Positions 25,279-43,937 of a stretch of 64,000 nt of DNA are shown piece by piece. The notes beneath the pieces were generated by a model. That model had not been told where the DNA came from. It searched no databases and saw nothing but the letters and a program-made list of their open reading frames with translations. This DNA comes from Methanohalobium evestigatum Z-7303 (GTDB lineage Archaea; Halobacteriota; Methanosarcinia; Methanosarcinales; Methanosarcinaceae). Positions within the stretch are counted from its first letter, which is position 1. Each line of letters opens with the position of its first letter. The stretch is from NCBI RefSeq assembly GCF_000196655.1, contig NC_014253.1, positions 1,753,423 to 1,817,422 of the forward strand, in the 5' to 3' direction. Made by a program: the position numbers and the translations under genes.

Positions 25279-25428
25279 GATTACACTTCTTTTAGGTTTA
25301 ATATCGAGTGAAACGTATAAATAAGGTTTATCCCATTTAAAACAACCGTATAGTTGAGTTTAATCTACTGTTTGTAATTTAGAATTAATGATTATCATTT
25401 TAAAAAACATTCCAAAGGGTGAATCACT

Positions 25429-27780
25429 ATCAAAAGCATATTTGAGAAACTGGGTACTTTTATAGAAGACCATTCAGTAGTTATTCTTATCATTGCATTC
25501 CTATTTATCTTTGTTTCATTCCAGGGTGCACAGAATATAGAAATGATTTCAGGAACTGAAACATTTGTGGAAAAAGACTCCAAATTGTACCAGAATTATG
25601 ACCATCTCTATTTGAACCTTTTCAGCACCCAGTCTATAGTAGTACTTGTTGAGGGAGATGATGTCAAAACTCCTGAAGTTATGAAATCAATGAACAGGCT
25701 GGAAAAACAGGTAGACCCCCTATCAGGAGTGGTACAGGTTACAAGTGCAGCCTCTATTGTTGAAGAAATGAATTATCAAAAAATAGGCAAACGTGAAATA
25801 CCAGATACCAAAGAAGAAATTAATTCATTATTATCCAATACAAACACAGGTAAAACTTTACCTGATGATACTCATGCATTAGTTTTTGTGGAGGTTGAAG
25901 GAGATATCAGCAATGATGAATTAAGGGATATACTCCATGAAACCGAAAAATCCGTATCAATGACTGGATTTCCACCCGGTTATTCAGTTACAGTTACCGG
26001 TGAACCCGCTTTTAGTCTTGCCATGGAAGAACTCATGAATGAAAGCATGCCACCACTGATGGCTATTGCTGCTGTATTGATGATTATTGCCCTTTATCTG
26101 GTTTTCAGACATGTCAGATGGAGACTATTGCCCCTTATCATCGTATTTCTTGGAATAATTTATACATTCGGTGCTATGGGTTATTTAGAAATCCCCATGA
26201 GCATGGTTTCAATGTCTGCATTTCCGATACTGATAGGTCTTGGAATTGATTATGCGATTCAGTTCCACAGTAGGATTGAAGAAGAGCTTGAACGTCTGCA
26301 TGATGAAAAGGAAGCTGTCATTGAGACTGTTAAACATACCGGACCTGCTGTTTTAATCGCACTGATTATAACATCTCTTGGATTTGTTTCATTATATACA
26401 TCAACCGTTCCGATGGTTCAAGATTTTGCAAAATTACTGCTCATCGGAGTGATTATGTGTTTCCTTTCATCATTATTCGTCGGAGTTTCTGTAATTTATG
26501 GTCTTGACAGTATTTTCAAGAAAAATAATAAATTGATCAATGCCATAAATTCAAAAATAAAATATGATTCAAACAGTAATTCCGGTAAAAATACCGAGGA
26601 ACAAAAAAACGATATCATAGAACGCTATATTGATAAAGTTACATCATTTACAATAAAACATCCTGTTACGATTTTACTTATTGCTGGACTATTGTGTGTC
26701 TCAGGACTATATGTGGATCAGGATGTACCATTAGAAACCGATACTGAGACATTTGTTCCCCAGGACATGAAAGCACTTGTTGAGATGCAACATCTTTTTG
26801 ATATTATCAGCGGAAATGACCAGCTCAACCTTATTATTAAAGTCGATGACAATACTGACCCACAAATTCTAAAATGGATGGATTACTTCAGCAACCATGA
26901 AATAGAAACAAGGGATAACATATACGATTCCAGTAGCATTGTCCCCATAATCAAATCAATGAACTCCGGTACAATTCCTGATAGCAGCGATAAAATCCAG
27001 GAATTATACAATCAAATGCCTGATGGCCAGAAAGAGCGATATATCCACGGTAATACCATGCTTTTAATGAATCTGGACATGGGCGATGCAATGTCTAATC
27101 TGGGCCTTGAAGGTATTGATGAACTTGTAAAAGTTGTCAGAAAAGATATTTCATGGACTCAGCCTCCCGCAGATGCTGATGTAACAATTACTGGTAATTC
27201 GGTTGTATTTACCACTGTAATTACAGCACTTACATCAGGTAGAATTGCAATGACCCTTCTGGGACTGAGTCTTATTTTTGCAGGTCTTCTCTTCATATAC
27301 CGAGACTGGTTAAAAGCTATTACACCTGTAATTACAATGTTCATGGTTGTCGGATGGGCAGGAGGAGTTATGTATTATTCAGGTATTAAATACACACCTA
27401 TGACTGCAACACTCGGAGCACTGATTTTAGGTATCGGTTCAGAATATGCAGTCCTAATGATGGAGAGGTATTTTGAAGAGAAAAGTAAAGGAGAAAATCC
27501 GATTGAAGCAATGCGTGAATCCAGCAGGAAAATCGGGAAGGCAATTGTAACTTCCGGATTTACGACTGTTTTTGGTTTTTCGGCTTTGCTGGCATCTCCT
27601 TTCTCCATGAACAGAAATTTTGGATTGGTCACTGTTATAGATGTTGGACTTGCACTGCTTGCCACATTTATCGTGTTCCCGGCTGTTATAATTTTACTTG
27701 ATGGACATCGTGAAAAAAAGAAACAAAAGAAACAAAACATATCATCATCAACCGATAATTCAAAAGAGGCGGATGCTTAA
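25429..27780 (+). CDS. RND/MMPL-family exporter, apparently with an ATC start
   Basis: About 783 aa. The first ATG (25543) would remove the first membrane helix. Upstream the frame stays open as KSIFEKLGTFIEDHSVVILI back to a TGA at 25420, with no ATG, GTG or TTG. An ATC at 25429 lies six bases after GGGTGA, where the family start should be. Two MMPL halves, each with one helix, a large outer domain and five helices; conserved GLGIDYAIQFHSRI and GIGSEYAVLMMERY. Probably exports lipids or hydrophobic compounds. Its stop overlaps the next ATG. Confidence 0.85.
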   Translation: MKSIFEKLGTFIEDHSVVILIIAFLFIFVSFQGAQNIEMISGTETFVEKDSKLYQNYDHLYLNLFSTQSIVVLVEGDDVKTPEVMKSMNRLEKQVDPLSGVVQVTSAASIVEEMNYQKIGKREIPDTKEEINSLLSNTNTGKTLPDDTHALVFVEVEGDISNDELRDILHETEKSVSMTGFPPGYSVTVTGEPAFSLAMEELMNESMPPLMAIAAVLMIIALYLVFRHVRWRLLPLIIVFLGIIYTFGAMGYLEIPMSMVSMSAFPILIGLGIDYAIQFHSRIEEELERLHDEKEAVIETVKHTGPAVLIALIITSLGFVSLYTSTVPMVQDFAKLLLIGVIMCFLSSLFVGVSVIYGLDSIFKKNNKLINAINSKIKYDSNSNSGKNTEEQKNDIIERYIDKVTSFTIKHPVTILLIAGLLCVSGLYVDQDVPLETDTETFVPQDMKALVEMQHLFDIISGNDQLNLIIKVDDNTDPQILKWMDYFSNHEIETRDNIYDSSSIVPIIKSMNSGTIPDSSDKIQELYNQMPDGQKERYIHGNTMLLMNLDMGDAMSNLGLEGIDELVKVVRKDISWTQPPADADVTITGNSVVFTTVITALTSGRIAMTLLGLSLIFAGLLFIYRDWLKAITPVITMFMVVGWAGGVMYYSGIKYTPMTATLGALILGIGSEYAVLMMERYFEEKSKGENPIEAMRESSRKIGKAIVTSGFTTVFGFSALLASPFSMNRNFGLVTVIDVGLALLATFIVFPAVIILLDGHREKKKQKKQNISSSTDNSKEADA

Positions 27781-30657: not shown

Positions 30658-31704
30658 TCAAATTATGTGTATAGCAGCAGCCTTGAATGACACTACAACC
30701 CTGTCACCGGGTTTAAGATCAAGTTCTGTTGCTGATTGTCTTGTAATCAATGAATTAATGTTAAAATCTTTACCCATGTTCAATTTTACCCTTAATAAAA
30801 CCCCCATAAGTTCCATTTCCACAACAGTTGCATAAAACGTATTTCTGGCACTACTTTCAAACTCTGTTTTGCTGATTGTCACATTTTCAGGTCGAAGACA
30901 GCCATATACAGTTTCACCCTTTTCATAATTGGATATGGCACATATATTGTTACCATATACATCCAAGTTTATCATACCGTTATTGCTCCGGGTAACAATT
31001 CCCTTGAATACATTTTCAACGCCTACAAAATCTGCAACTTTATTATTAACTGGTTTGTTAAAAATTTCACCGGGTGTTCCTACCTGCATCAATCCCCCAT
31101 CCATCATAACTCCTATCCTGTCAGCCAATACCCTTGCTTCAGTCTGGTCATGGGTTACATGAACTACTGTCACACCTGTATCTTCATGGACTTTTTTCAG
31201 GATTTTTCGGGTATCTTCCTGTGTTCTGGGGTCAAGTGCACTTAAAGGTTCATCCAGCAACAGAATATCCGGATTAATAATCAGGGCTCTTGCAAGCGCC
31301 ACTCTTTGCTGTTCTCCACCTGACAATGTTATGGGGTTTCTGTGAAGAATATGAGATATGTTTAGATATTCTGCCATATCCCTGATTTTTGGATTCTTAA
31401 TACCCCTCATACGTGCACCAAATCCGATATTCTGTTCAACATTCATATGAGGGAATAACGAATAATTCTGATATACAAATCCTATATTGCGTTTTTCAGG
31501 TGGGAGACTATCGATATTATTTCCATTAAATGATATATATCCTTTTTCTGGCTGGTGAAAACCCGCTATAAGTTCCAGTACAAGTGTCTTCCCTGCTCCT
31601 GTGGGTCCAAGCAGTACAAAATATTCTCCATTCTGGATTGTTAGGTCGAGATTTTTTATTGAAAAATCGCCCCAATCTCTATTCAGATTTTTAATCTCTA
31701 TCAT
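30658..31704 (-). CDS. wtpC: Tungstate/molybdate ABC transporter ATP-binding protein
   Basis: 348 aa. Walker A GPTGAGKT, Q-loop VYQNYSLFPHMN, signature LSGGEQQR, Walker B ILLLDEPLSALD and switch histidine THDQTE are all intact. A C-terminal TOBE region (about 285-348) may give oxyanion-dependent trans-inhibition as in ModC. The start overlaps the permease stop by 14 bp. Wtp versus Mod is chosen on the substrate-binding protein; the distinction is probable. Confidence 0.9.
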   Translation of the reverse strand: MIEIKNLNRDWGDFSIKNLDLTIQNGEYFVLLGPTGAGKTLVLELIAGFHQPEKGYISFNGNNIDSLPPEKRNIGFVYQNYSLFPHMNVEQNIGFGARMRGIKNPKIRDMAEYLNISHILHRNPITLSGGEQQRVALARALIINPDILLLDEPLSALDPRTQEDTRKILKKVHEDTGVTVVHVTHDQTEARVLADRIGVMMDGGLMQVGTPGEIFNKPVNNKVADFVGVENVFKGIVTRSNNGMINLDVYGNNICAISNYEKGETVYGCLRPENVTISKTEFESSARNTFYATVVEMELMGVLLRVKLNMGKDFNINSLITRQSATELDLKPGDRVVVSFKAAAIHII

Positions 31705-32518
31705 ATCTACGCCAGCCTGACGATATCATTCTAAGTATTACAAATATAGTTAATGTTACCAGAATCAGTAGAACTGCAATTGGTCTGGATTCAGAAAGCC
31801 CCATGGATGTGAAACGTTCATAAATCAGGGTTGGTCCCACCATCGGATAATAGGCAAGCATGATAACAGCTCCGAATTCACTAATTGCACGTGCCCAGCA
31901 CATTATAGAGCCAGTAAGGAGATGGCGTGATGCAAGTGGGAATGTAACAAATAAAAACGCTTTCCATAGCGGAGCTCCCAGAGACCTTGCAGCATTTTCC
32001 AGTCGAGGGTCTACACTCTGGAATCCTTCACGGGCAGAATTCGTCAGGTAGGGTGCTGAAACAAACAGCATGGCTACCACTGTTCCTGCCATTGCATCTC
32101 TAAAACGAACAATTGATTCCAGAGGGTCACCGATTAGACCATTTGCTCCAAAGATTGTAAGAAGTGCTATACCTGCTACTGTATGGGGAACCACCACTGG
32201 TATATCAAGTATACTTTCAATAATTCGTTTCCCAGCAAAATCTTTTCTTGCAAGAAGATAAGCTGTAGGAACACCAAGTATAAAGGAAAGCAGTGTAGCA
32301 AGAAATCCAGAATACAATGAGAGGAATATCGCTTCCAGAACAGAACTATCCCTTACGGCTTCTATTAGACCCGAAAAATCCGTAACTATTTGCTGTAAAA
32401 TCATATTCGAAAGTGTAATAAAAACAAAAAACAGCAAAATAGAAAGAGAAAGGAAAAATATTACCAGCATGGGATTTGTCTGTCCTAAACCGTTAAGTCT
32501 TGATTTTATTTCTGGCAT
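31691..32518 (-). CDS. wtpB: Tungstate/molybdate ABC transporter permease
   Basis: 275 aa with about six membrane helices and the binding-protein-dependent transport loop (ENAARSLGAPLWKAFLFVTF) that docks on the ATPase. SILDIPVVVPHTVAGIALL is typical of ModB/WtpB/CysT permeases. Encoded between the binding protein and ATPase. The complete three-gene set without other genes indicates a functional transporter. Confidence 0.92.
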   Translation of the reverse strand: MPEIKSRLNGLGQTNPMLVIFFLSLSILLFFVFITLSNMILQQIVTDFSGLIEAVRDSSVLEAIFLSLYSGFLATLLSFILGVPTAYLLARKDFAGKRIIESILDIPVVVPHTVAGIALLTIFGANGLIGDPLESIVRFRDAMAGTVVAMLFVSAPYLTNSAREGFQSVDPRLENAARSLGAPLWKAFLFVTFPLASRHLLTGSIMCWARAISEFGAVIMLAYYPMVGPTLIYERFTSMGLSESRPIAVLLILVTLTIFVILRMISSGWRRYDRD

Positions 32519-32537
32519 ATTTTCCCTTTTAAAAGAT

Positions 32538-33662
<1,125 letters not shown>

Positions 33663-33770
33663 TTATTAAAAATTGTGTTATCGGCAAATTATAAATATCC
33701 TTAAGACAGCATAGATTGCTATATATAAAATACAAATCTATATATCCATAATTCAAACAGAGGGATTATC

Positions 33771-34781
33771 ATAGAATCACGGAAAGTCCAGCAAACAGGT
33801 GGTTCCACCTATATAATTTCACTTCCCAAAAAATGGGCTGAAAAAGTAAGAATAAAATCTGGCTCACAGGTTTTCCTCCAACAGCATCCAGACGGAACTC
33901 TTGTAATTGACCCTGTTTCGGAAAGCTCACCTGTCCAGAAAAAAGAACGGGATATTACTGGTAAAATGGGAGAAGTACTTACCAGAGATATTATTGCCGC
34001 ATATCTTGCTGGTTTTGATATAATTGAACTCAAATCAAAACGTATATTAGCAGAACAAAAAAATGTTATTAGAGATGTATGCTACAAACTTATTGGACCA
34101 GAGATAATTGAGGAAACTTCTAAAAGTGTTATTATACAGGACCTTCTAAATCCGAATGAGGTATCAATTAAAAAAAGTGTCAAAAGAATGTTTTTAATTT
34201 CAAATTCCATGCATAAAGATGCCATACGCGCGCTCAAAACAAAAGATTCTGATCTGGCTATGGATGTGATTCACAGAGATGACGAAGTTGACCGTCTGTT
34301 TTTATTGATATCCAAACAATTCAGAGCAGTATTACGCGGAGCACAATTACCGGATACTGCAGAAACATCCATCGATGAATACCATGACTTTAGGATGACC
34401 GCATCACCACTGGAGCGTATTGCAGACCATGCACGTAAAATCGCCAAAGTTGCATATAACATGGATTTTTCAATAACACAGGATTCAATGGATTTGATAG
34501 AAAATGCAAGTGATACATCAAGAAAAATAGTTGAAAACAGCATCAATGCACTTTATGATTCAAATGTAGAACTTGCCAATCAGGTAATTGACCAAGGTGA
34601 CCAGATGAGAGAACAGGTTACAAAAATCAATGAAACGCTTCTTAAACTCGATTCTCATGAAGCAATTGTTGCTCTTGGTACTGTAGCAGACAGTATCGAC
34701 AGGATAGGTGATTACGGAGCCAACATCGCAGAAATATCCATAAACTCGGCAATGTCTAACGCTTTAAAAGAACAGGATTAA
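33771..34781 (+). CDS. PhoU-domain regulator with N-terminal AbrB/SpoVT domain, apparently with an ATA start
   Basis: 336 aa if the family start is used. Codons upstream of the first ATG (33966) read ESRKVQQTGGSTYIISLPKKW, the standard start of this archaeal family, without any ATG, GTG or TTG back to a TAA at 33726. An ATA stands where the initiator Met is expected, with GAGGGAT a few bases before it. The SpoVT/AbrB-like DNA-binding segment (1-50) is followed by two PhoU helical domains (HKDAIRALKTKDSDLAMDVI; PLERIADHARKIA; VADSIDRIGDYGANIAE). Probable regulator of phosphate uptake; no pst genes are next door. Confidence 0.85.
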   Translation: MESRKVQQTGGSTYIISLPKKWAEKVRIKSGSQVFLQQHPDGTLVIDPVSESSPVQKKERDITGKMGEVLTRDIIAAYLAGFDIIELKSKRILAEQKNVIRDVCYKLIGPEIIEETSKSVIIQDLLNPNEVSIKKSVKRMFLISNSMHKDAIRALKTKDSDLAMDVIHRDDEVDRLFLLISKQFRAVLRGAQLPDTAETSIDEYHDFRMTASPLERIADHARKIAKVAYNMDFSITQDSMDLIENASDTSRKIVENSINALYDSNVELANQVIDQGDQMREQVTKINETLLKLDSHEAIVALGTVADSIDRIGDYGANIAEISINSAMSNALKEQD

Positions 34782-34926: not shown

Positions 34927-35565
34927 ATGAGTCCAATAAAGTTATTCAAAAACAATTTTAGAGACTTTTTTAAGAAACTATTCAAGAAAAAAAAGAATGC
35001 ACGTATAGGTATCTATGGTCCTCCGAATGCGGGTAAAACTACACTTGCCAACCGCATTTTAAGAGACTGGACTGGAGACGCTATGGGTCCAGTGTCACAT
35101 ATAGAACACGAAACCCGAAGTGCAAGACGTAGAGAAGGAGTTACAATAAAAACAAACGGGCATTCGATAGGTCTTGATGTAATTGATACACCGGGTCTTG
35201 CTACAAAAATCGATTTCCACAACTTTATGGATTATGAAATGGAAGAAGATGAAGCAAAAAGAAGGGCTAAAGAAGCAACAGAAGGCGTTATTGAAGCTGT
35301 GAAATGGCTGGATGATCTGGATGGCATTATCCTTGTTATGGATGCAACACAGGACCCTTTTACACAGGTAAATGTTACTGTTGTTGGTAATATGGAAGCC
35401 CGCAAGTTGCCATTGTTAATAGTATCAAATAAAGTCGATATGCCAGAAGCCTCACCAAATACCATAATGAATGCTTTCCCCCAGCACCCTATGGTATCAA
35501 TATCGGCTCTTGAAGGTAATAACATCGATACACTGTACCAGGAAATCGCAAAAACGTTCGGGTGA
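34927..35565 (+). CDS. Era-like GTP-binding protein (DUF2073-associated)
   Basis: 212 aa from the ATG at 34927, which follows GGAGGATAT; the longer frame to 34891 lacks a site. A basic amphipathic N-terminus (FRDFFKKLFKKKKNAR) may bind RNA or membrane. G motifs: G1 GPPNAGKTT, G3 DTPG, G4 SNKVD, G5-like SALEG. The family is conserved in Euryarchaeota and regularly followed by a DUF2073 gene, as here. The cellular role is unknown. Confidence 0.88.
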   Translation: MSPIKLFKNNFRDFFKKLFKKKKNARIGIYGPPNAGKTTLANRILRDWTGDAMGPVSHIEHETRSARRREGVTIKTNGHSIGLDVIDTPGLATKIDFHNFMDYEMEEDEAKRRAKEATEGVIEAVKWLDDLDGIILVMDATQDPFTQVNVTVVGNMEARKLPLLIVSNKVDMPEASPNTIMNAFPQHPMVSISALEGNNIDTLYQEIAKTFG

Positions 35566-35570
35566 TTAGT

Positions 35571-35933
35571 ATGCAAGGTATTCAAATGGATTTGATTTCG
35601 GAAGAGAGATTATCAGGGATGAACCCTGTAGAAAAAGTCAGGTTTATTATTGATGAAGTCAAAAAAGACAAAGTACTGGTACTTGAGAAGGGATTAACCC
35701 CTGATGAGGAAGCTAACCTTATCGAAATGACAATGACTAAAATCCAGCCCGATGGGTTTTCAGGTATAGAAATGGAAAGCTATCCAGCCCAATCTGGCAA
35801 TTCCATAATCAATAAGCTGTTTAATAAAGGAGGTCACCGTACCCGTCTGACAATTATTGGTCCTGCCAATCAATTAAAGACATTGAAAAAAGACCGCGAC
35901 CTTATAACTACATTACTGTCATCAAAAGAATAA
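35571..35933 (+). CDS. DUF2073 protein
   Basis: 120 aa from the ATG at 35571, placed behind GGGTGAT that overlaps the end of the GTPase gene. MDLISEERLSGMNPVEKVRFIIDEV and the end RTRLTIIGPANQLKTLKKD are typical of the DUF2073 family. It is nearly always linked with the Era-like GTPase, so it is probably a partner in the same process. Function unknown. No membrane segment. Confidence 0.88.
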   Translation: MQGIQMDLISEERLSGMNPVEKVRFIIDEVKKDKVLVLEKGLTPDEEANLIEMTMTKIQPDGFSGIEMESYPAQSGNSIINKLFNKGGHRTRLTIIGPANQLKTLKKDRDLITTLLSSKE

Positions 35934-42301: not shown

Positions 42302-43801
42302 TCAATCTTCTGCTTCTTCCACACCTACTGCACTCAATATCTTTTTCACAACCGCTTCATTGACCAGACGTAGAAGTGTCTGTCTATCTTTTGCTGCACT
42401 AAACACTCCAAGCGGAACCTGTGCTGCGGCTGCTGTTGCATGTCCTCCTGCTGATTGTTCCCCAAATGCCCTTTTCATGACATCTCCAAGATTGATTTTT
42501 ATATCATTGCTTCGTCCTGAAAGGTAGATTTTATCCTTGGATACCCCAAAAACTATTGATGTGGATATGCCTTCAAGATTCAACAGATAATCAGCTGCCT
42601 GTGGCAGTGTATCACGGTCTCGGACTGTTCCCACATTTGACAAAAGATAACTTCCAAAAACCTGTCTGTTTTTAATTGCTTCTCCAAAGACTTCCAATGT
42701 TTCTGTTGCTATAGAGGGACGTTCAAGCTGTTCAAGGATTTCATGGTCTGCCAAGGGATAAAGGAAAGAAGCTGCAGAAAGGTCGGCAGGGTCTGTATTT
42801 CTTTTGAAATCCTGTGTATCTGTCCTTATACCATATAACAGCGCTGTTGCAAGATTACTGGTTATATCAATATTTAATTCCTGTAGATATTTTGTAAGAA
42901 TTGTTGCTGTTGCTCCTATATTGGGTCTAATATCAATATAATCAGCATCAATTTCTGCATCTTCTACAGGATGATGGTCGAGTACAATACCTACATGGGT
43001 ATCTCGGTCAAGCATATTGTTGGATCCGGGTACTGCACAATCCACCAGTGCTATATTCTGGAAATCTGAAATATCTGTTTCTTCCATCCTATTTAAATCA
43101 ATATCCAGAAGATTTACAAAGGCTTTATTTTCCTGGTGTCCTATTTCACCATGATAAAATATAGTGCTTTCAATACCATAGGTTTTTGCTATTTCTTTAA
43201 GAGCCATCGCACTGGCAATAGCATCTGGGTCAGGATTATCATGAACCACTACACCAAGTTTTTTGTCGGCAATATCTTTCAGCCATCGTGTTAACTTGGT
43301 ACCTCTACGCATGGATTCGGCACGTTCAAGTGTTCTTGCAAGTGATGTAGCCACCACCCTCGAGGGTATTATAACATAATCAGCACCTTTGGATTCCATC
43401 TCTTTTTTATTGATAACATCTGATGCACGTGCCACACAGTAAACATCAGGAGAAACCAACTTTTTAATATTTTCTATGGCTGATTTGTTGGATTCATTAT
43501 CAGAACTTAATACAAGCACAGCTGTTAAATTTCTTACATTGATTTGGTTAAGAGTTTCAGGATTGCTTATGTCACCCTGTATTGCTTCATACTCTTCTTC
43601 TCTTAGAGTTTCGATTTTGGCAGGGTCTTTATCGATGATGACCAAATCTTTATCAAGTTCTCTAAGTTCCTTAGCTACGGCAAAACCAATACTCCCACTA
43701 CCAAGGACGAGATAAGTAGGTTTTATTTTTGATTTGGCGGGTAAATATGAGGGTTTAGTTTTAGTTTTGGTGGACGGGTTTGTAGCCTTTACGCTGGCCA
43801 T
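42302..43801 (-). CDS. TrkA-N/DHH-DHHA1 phosphoesterase
   Basis: 499 aa. N-terminal Rossmann domain (about 28-150, VLGSGSIGFAVAKELRELDK) that binds a nucleotide, then a DHH domain with HDNPDPDAIASAMALKEIA and VLDHHPVEDAE, then DHHA1 with GRSNDIKINLG and AGGHATAAAA. The fusion is common in methanogens; related DHH enzymes cleave cyclic di-AMP or nanoRNA. The substrate is not known. A Thr/Lys-rich N-terminal tail is probably disordered. A single Met start at 43801. Confidence 0.9.
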   Translation of the reverse strand: MASVKATNPSTKTKTKPSYLPAKSKIKPTYLVLGSGSIGFAVAKELRELDKDLVIIDKDPAKIETLREEEYEAIQGDISNPETLNQINVRNLTAVLVLSSDNESNKSAIENIKKLVSPDVYCVARASDVINKKEMESKGADYVIIPSRVVATSLARTLERAESMRRGTKLTRWLKDIADKKLGVVVHDNPDPDAIASAMALKEIAKTYGIESTIFYHGEIGHQENKAFVNLLDIDLNRMEETDISDFQNIALVDCAVPGSNNMLDRDTHVGIVLDHHPVEDAEIDADYIDIRPNIGATATILTKYLQELNIDITSNLATALLYGIRTDTQDFKRNTDPADLSAASFLYPLADHEILEQLERPSIATETLEVFGEAIKNRQVFGSYLLSNVGTVRDRDTLPQAADYLLNLEGISTSIVFGVSKDKIYLSGRSNDIKINLGDVMKRAFGEQSAGGHATAAAAQVPLGVFSAAKDRQTLLRLVNEAVVKKILSAVGVEEAED

Positions 43802-43937
43802 AGTGCAGTACCTCCTTCGTAATATCAGGACACAATTGTTTATTAAGGAACTTTCGGTTAATACCTATTAAACCTTCCACTATTCACTATTCTTAGATGT
43901 TAATCTGTAAAGTTGAGTATCCCCTATATTAATAAAA

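Follow-up and report, generated by a model that had tools for sequence, protein, structure and literature searches.

Where does translation begin in a conserved archaeal gene whose frame opens without a standard initiation codon, and why would such a start be kept? The question is raised by a regulator gene, here called phoU, with an AbrB/MazE domain and a PhoU domain, which lies in a 64-kb window (the whole stretch of DNA that was analysed) of a 2.24-Mb contig in the archaeal genome of Methanohalobium, 2.41 Mb in total. The phoU frame is open on the forward strand from an in-frame TAA at 33726..33728 to the stop at 34779-34781, and its first in-frame ATG lies at 33966..33968, 65 codons downstream of an ATA at 33771..33773. 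An earlier note had claimed that no ATG, GTG or TTG occurs between the stop at 33726 and codon 66, and that an ATA stands at the expected initiator position behind GAGGGAT. Both claims agree with the frame as read here: there are no standard starts between the TAA and the ATG at 33966, and the Shine-Dalgarno (SD) sequence GAGGGAT occupies 33760..33766, with 7 nt between the end of its GAGG and the ATA. Counted from the ATA, the gene (33771..34781, forward strand) has 336 codons, and ESRKVQQTGGSTYIISLPKKW follows the ATA directly. A possible TATA box in the letters of the sequence (tatatataaa, 33720..33729, forward strand) could, judging from the usual kind of spacing, place the transcript start near 33752, 3' of the in-frame stop; TATA-like positions upstream of phoU differ among orthologs.

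The product of phoU is an archaeal PhoU-like regulator, not the PhoU of a pst operon. Pfam identifies a PhoU domain (E=4.5e-30) and, at residues 6-50 of the query translated from 33774, a MazE_antitoxin domain (PF04014, E=4.2e-12), the AbrB/MazE-like predicted DNA-binding domain encoded at 33789..33923 on the forward strand. The protein resembles bacterial PhoU (TIGR02135) in its PhoU repeats, and PhoU structures are its nearest solved relatives, but it differs in scoring 89 bits against TIGR02135, below the NCBIfam cut-off of 130, and in carrying the extra N-terminal AbrB/MazE domain. Its neighbourhood is not that of pst. Downstream on the forward strand (34927..35933) are genes for an Era-like GTPase and a DUF2073-type protein, names assigned from the sequences, which follow phoU in most of the family genomes checked, with phoU heading the run. 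Tungstate/molybdate-type ABC transporter genes lie upstream and divergent (30658-33632, minus strand), and among the genomes checked they stand beside phoU only in Methanohalobium.

The whole of the AbrB/MazE domain is encoded 5' of the ATG at 33966. Translation from this ATG, the first standard start in the frame, with upstream conservation due to something else, was rejected as the main route because the AbrB domain and the best-conserved N-terminal residues are encoded upstream of it and would be removed. Codons 2-65 form a recognisable AbrB/MazE domain and show coding-type evolution in every ortholog, and this reading is extremely improbable.

The codon aligned with the ATA was compared in 87 phoU orthologs, a set that contains repeats (one contig region very probably appears twice, as L035 and L112) and some close relatives. 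It is ATA in 59, ATC in 14 and ATG in 14, and a near-cognate start is thus conserved in 73 of the 87. The ATG starts are confined to the order-level family f2 (outgroups), the genera g9 and g10, and two g3 species; in the group L021/L022 the start has reverted to ATG. The ATA position is read as the initiator because the outgroups and two early genera carry ATG there. The A and T of codon 1 are 100% conserved across the orthologs, and a three-base coding pattern runs from +3. The SD is conserved at -11 to -5, with GAGG 7 nt 5' of the start in most orthologs, and -4 to -1 are unconserved. Of the 73 near-cognate orthologs, 55 have no ATG, GTG or TTG anywhere from the in-frame stop upstream to codon 2. 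Just three codons separate an in-frame stop from the ATA in 27 orthologs, the stop usually being a TGA that overlaps the SD (TGAGGG); the ATA of L112/L035 has TAA as the codon immediately 5' of it. From the lack of a standard start upstream, the ortholog alignment and the periodic conservation beginning at the ATA, we conclude that ATA or ATC is the initiator codon of phoU, the ATA being the start that the earlier note had proposed. The position of this start, its conservation and its SD are well established in so far as aligned sequences can establish them. Sequencing error as the source of the ATA is ruled out because a separate Methanohalobium genome (Methanohalobium sp. MAG, L003/L037; 99.4% protein identity) has the identical ATA and SD, and the correction to ATG for which the earlier note had allowed is contradicted by it.

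Initiation at some other upstream codon, such as the ATN two codons before the ATA, is very unlikely. That codon is often ATT, ATA or ATG, an in-frame ATG being present in some genomes of g8 and g3, and its first two letters, AT at -6/-5, are conserved. It lies only about 1 nt past the SD core, however, which is too close; other phoU orthologs have GTA, GTT, GAT or TCA at the same place, most orthologs of the transporter described below have no ATN there, and its AT may belong to an extended SD. This candidate was discarded on SD spacing and lack of conservation.

Given initiation at ATA or ATC, the earlier note had suggested either relaxed initiation in the organism or recent decay of the start codon. 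Recent decay is rejected because ATA/ATC is family-wide, kept in about ten genera, the SD is conserved and ATG has been gained only once. The gain was counted on a quick protein tree of the 87 orthologs, with start-codon changes assigned by parsimony and few sites compared: ATG arose once among the 75 core orthologs, in a total of five start-codon changes, whereas at five neighbouring silent A/G sites, where the codon is for an invariant Glu, Lys or Gln, there were 12, 8, 4, 12 and 12 changes. ATG therefore seems to be selected against in phoU, with one gain set against 4-12 flips at adjacent silent sites; the one-step mutation to ATG, although an easy one, seems to be avoided, and the direction of the comparison is clear. 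The rarity of changes to ATG could have causes besides dosage.

Near-cognate starts are not restricted to phoU. The second such gene in the window, for which the earlier note had given an ATC, encodes an HAE3/MMPL (RND) transporter (TIGR00921; 25429..27780, forward strand). Its ATC at 25429 is preceded by the SD GGGTGA at 25417-25422 and by an in-frame TGA at 25420. Among 30 relatives, including members of another family of the order, the transporter starts with ATA in 13, ATT in 11, ATC in 4 and CTG in 2, and never with ATG; nine changes occurred among the near-cognates and none to ATG. The exosome gene csl4 (L243:11681-12448; G000 1351681-1352448; minus strand) starts with ATT behind the SD GAGGGAT. 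ATT, behind GAGGGAT or AAGGGAT, is found in 50/50 of the orthologs registered at that codon, from several families of the order, whereas the Ile codon after it changes freely; the csl4 of Methanosarcina (L315, L322) has an ATG directly 5' of the ATT. A gene for an MgtC/DUF4010 membrane protein (L147:9023-10357, minus strand) has an apparent ACG start in several genera (L326-L332, L335, L339-L342, L347) and ATG in others, and in two genomes an in-frame TGA lies one or two codons 5' of the ACG. Finally, a paralogous AbrB-PhoU group (rows L066, L068, L069, L073-L075, L078-L088, L090, L091, L093, L095 and L096), mostly from Methanosarcina and related genera, has ATT, ATC or ATA starts with an SD in most members. 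Elsewhere in the window, the gene for a TrkA_N-DHH protein (42305-43864) begins with ATG, and its ortholog in the relative G006 apparently begins with ATT, after AAGGAGGT.

The genome scan for conserved genes without a standard start that the earlier note had proposed was run on 855 kb of the Methanohalobium genome (G000), compared reciprocally with 1.2 Mb of one relative, G006. A pair was flagged only if its first standard start lay at least 6 codons inside the alignment; near-cognate calls were made by eye, and shadow ORFs, rRNA ORFs and one amber-interrupted gene were removed by hand. Of 273 strong gene pairs, 7 were rRNA shadows, leaving 266 genes, of which about 6-8 (about 2-3%, for this one genome pair) have near-cognate starts. 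Those recognised in G000 are phoU, the HAE3 transporter, csl4, the MgtC/DUF4010 gene and two further candidates, manC (L236 18281-19723; ATT in G000, ATG in G006) and a Cache histidine kinase gene (G000 1539668-1542295, L142/L143; ATT). Weaker candidates are a GH15 enzyme gene (L139 5993-7957; ATC) and one unnamed gene (L154 10668-12248; ACG). A frame at G000 1023729-1024496 lies 3' of an in-frame TAG in both genomes and is probably a pyrrolysine methyltransferase gene with amber readthrough.

These counts bear on the other suggestion of the earlier note, relaxed initiation, according to which near-cognate codons are weakly discriminated and starts drift without function. Several observations fit it: near-cognate starts recur at the frequency just given; AUA, AUC, AUU, ACG and CUG all occur and interchange in the HAE3 transporter; and some cases, such as manC, are confined to a single species. 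As a sufficient explanation it is nevertheless unlikely. The avoidance of ATG is gene-specific (none of 30 transporter genes and none of 50 csl4 genes have it at the registered codon, and phoU gained it once in 75), csl4 keeps ATT alone, and most genes of the same genomes keep ATG, which makes up 328/408 of the standard starts in the genomes compared. Relaxed initiation would thus explain why near-cognate starts are tolerated, but not the gene-by-gene avoidance of ATG next to silent sites that change freely.

How such codons might be read is suggested by the initiation apparatus. The initiator tRNA is ordinary, with a CAU anticodon and a GGG/CCC anticodon stem, and no second initiator tRNA was seen among the tRNAs read, a part of the 44. 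An SD match of at least 4 nt is present in 75-86% of near-cognate genes (75% for phoU orthologs), against 55% of ATG genes. Since the starts are one mismatch from AUG, the SDs strong and the tRNA ordinary, the simplest mechanism would be an ordinary initiator tRNA acting on a weak codon with the help of an SD. For phoU, the ordinary initiator tRNA-Met would initiate at the AUA at 33771 by mispairing at the third base, and the strong SD 7 nt upstream would hold the tRNA in place. That AUA is made a full start codon by a special initiator tRNA or by editing of the RNA is hardly credible by comparison. Editing of adenosine to inosine could give AUA the character of AUG, but it would not repair starts at AUC, AUU, ACG or CUG, and the tRNAs read argue against a special initiator.

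The weak start may have been conserved because little of the regulator is then translated; it would act as a translational throttle, one that factors governing start-codon fidelity, aIF1 for example, could possibly tune. Low output of phoU, selection for it and any regulation are inferred. Initiation of phoU at AUA by the ordinary tRNA and the SD, conserved as a low-gain throttle, is the probable explanation of the locus. It would make phoU one of a set in Methanosarcinales, together with the HAE3 transporter (AUH/CUG), csl4 (AUU), MgtC/DUF4010 (ACG) and the PhoU paralog (AUU/AUC/AUA). More tentatively, and with doubt prevailing, this set might be extended to a start-codon regulon of a few dozen genes in Methanosarcinales, each with its own near-cognate codon (AUU in csl4, AUA/AUC in phoU, AUH/CUG in the transporter, ACG in the MgtC-like gene), which would be raised or lowered together by initiation fidelity.

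Starts of this kind are known in bacteria. In S. aureus, conserved non-canonical starts are found in ccpN (AUA), cvfC1 (AUU) and infC (AUA); AUU and AUA starts with an extended SD give roughly 10% of the output of AUG, and one non-canonical start is medium-dependent (PMC13009471). By analogy, output from the phoU AUA would be low. The S. aureus genes resemble the archaeal ones in their conserved AUA/AUU codons and strong extended SDs, and one of them encodes a transcriptional regulator; they differ in being bacterial, three or four in number, of other families and experimentally demonstrated. The archaeal set has more genes, spans genera and families and also includes ACG and CUG, and its attenuation is deduced from the sequences. 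In E. coli, infC and pcnB have AUU starts that limit expression, as cited in PMC1780047 and PMC13009471. Of these, pcnB resembles csl4 in that both act in RNA tailing and decay, and infC differs in being autoregulated by IF3. Autoregulation by a fidelity factor does not describe the present case: the phoU product is an AbrB-PhoU protein, and a loop of aIF1 through a weak start of its own was dismissed, since the aIF1 gene in G006 begins with an ordinary ATG. To judge from its sequence, phoU appears to share the sequence features of infC, pcnB and ccpN starts, namely no usable AUG, GUG or UUG, a conserved near-cognate codon and a strong, well-spaced SD.

For archaea, a review of initiation names AUG, GUG and UUG alone (PMC7531240), and ribosome profiling of small ORFs in M. 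mazei reported nothing beyond CTG (PMC11456600). In the literature searched, no report of conserved starts other than AUG, GUG and UUG in archaeal protein genes was found, and nothing direct on AUA or AUU starts in Methanosarcina or archaea. On the sequences compared, the start of phoU seems to be no error but a brake on the output of protein that has long been conserved. If this is true, a consistent group of genes in a major order of methanogens would be cut short or given wrong starts by gene callers limited to ATG, GTG and TTG. Weak starts would also be a heritable setting of expression in archaea, as they are in bacteria, and these genes would provide natural targets for the study of archaeal start-codon fidelity (aIF1) in the tractable Methanosarcina.
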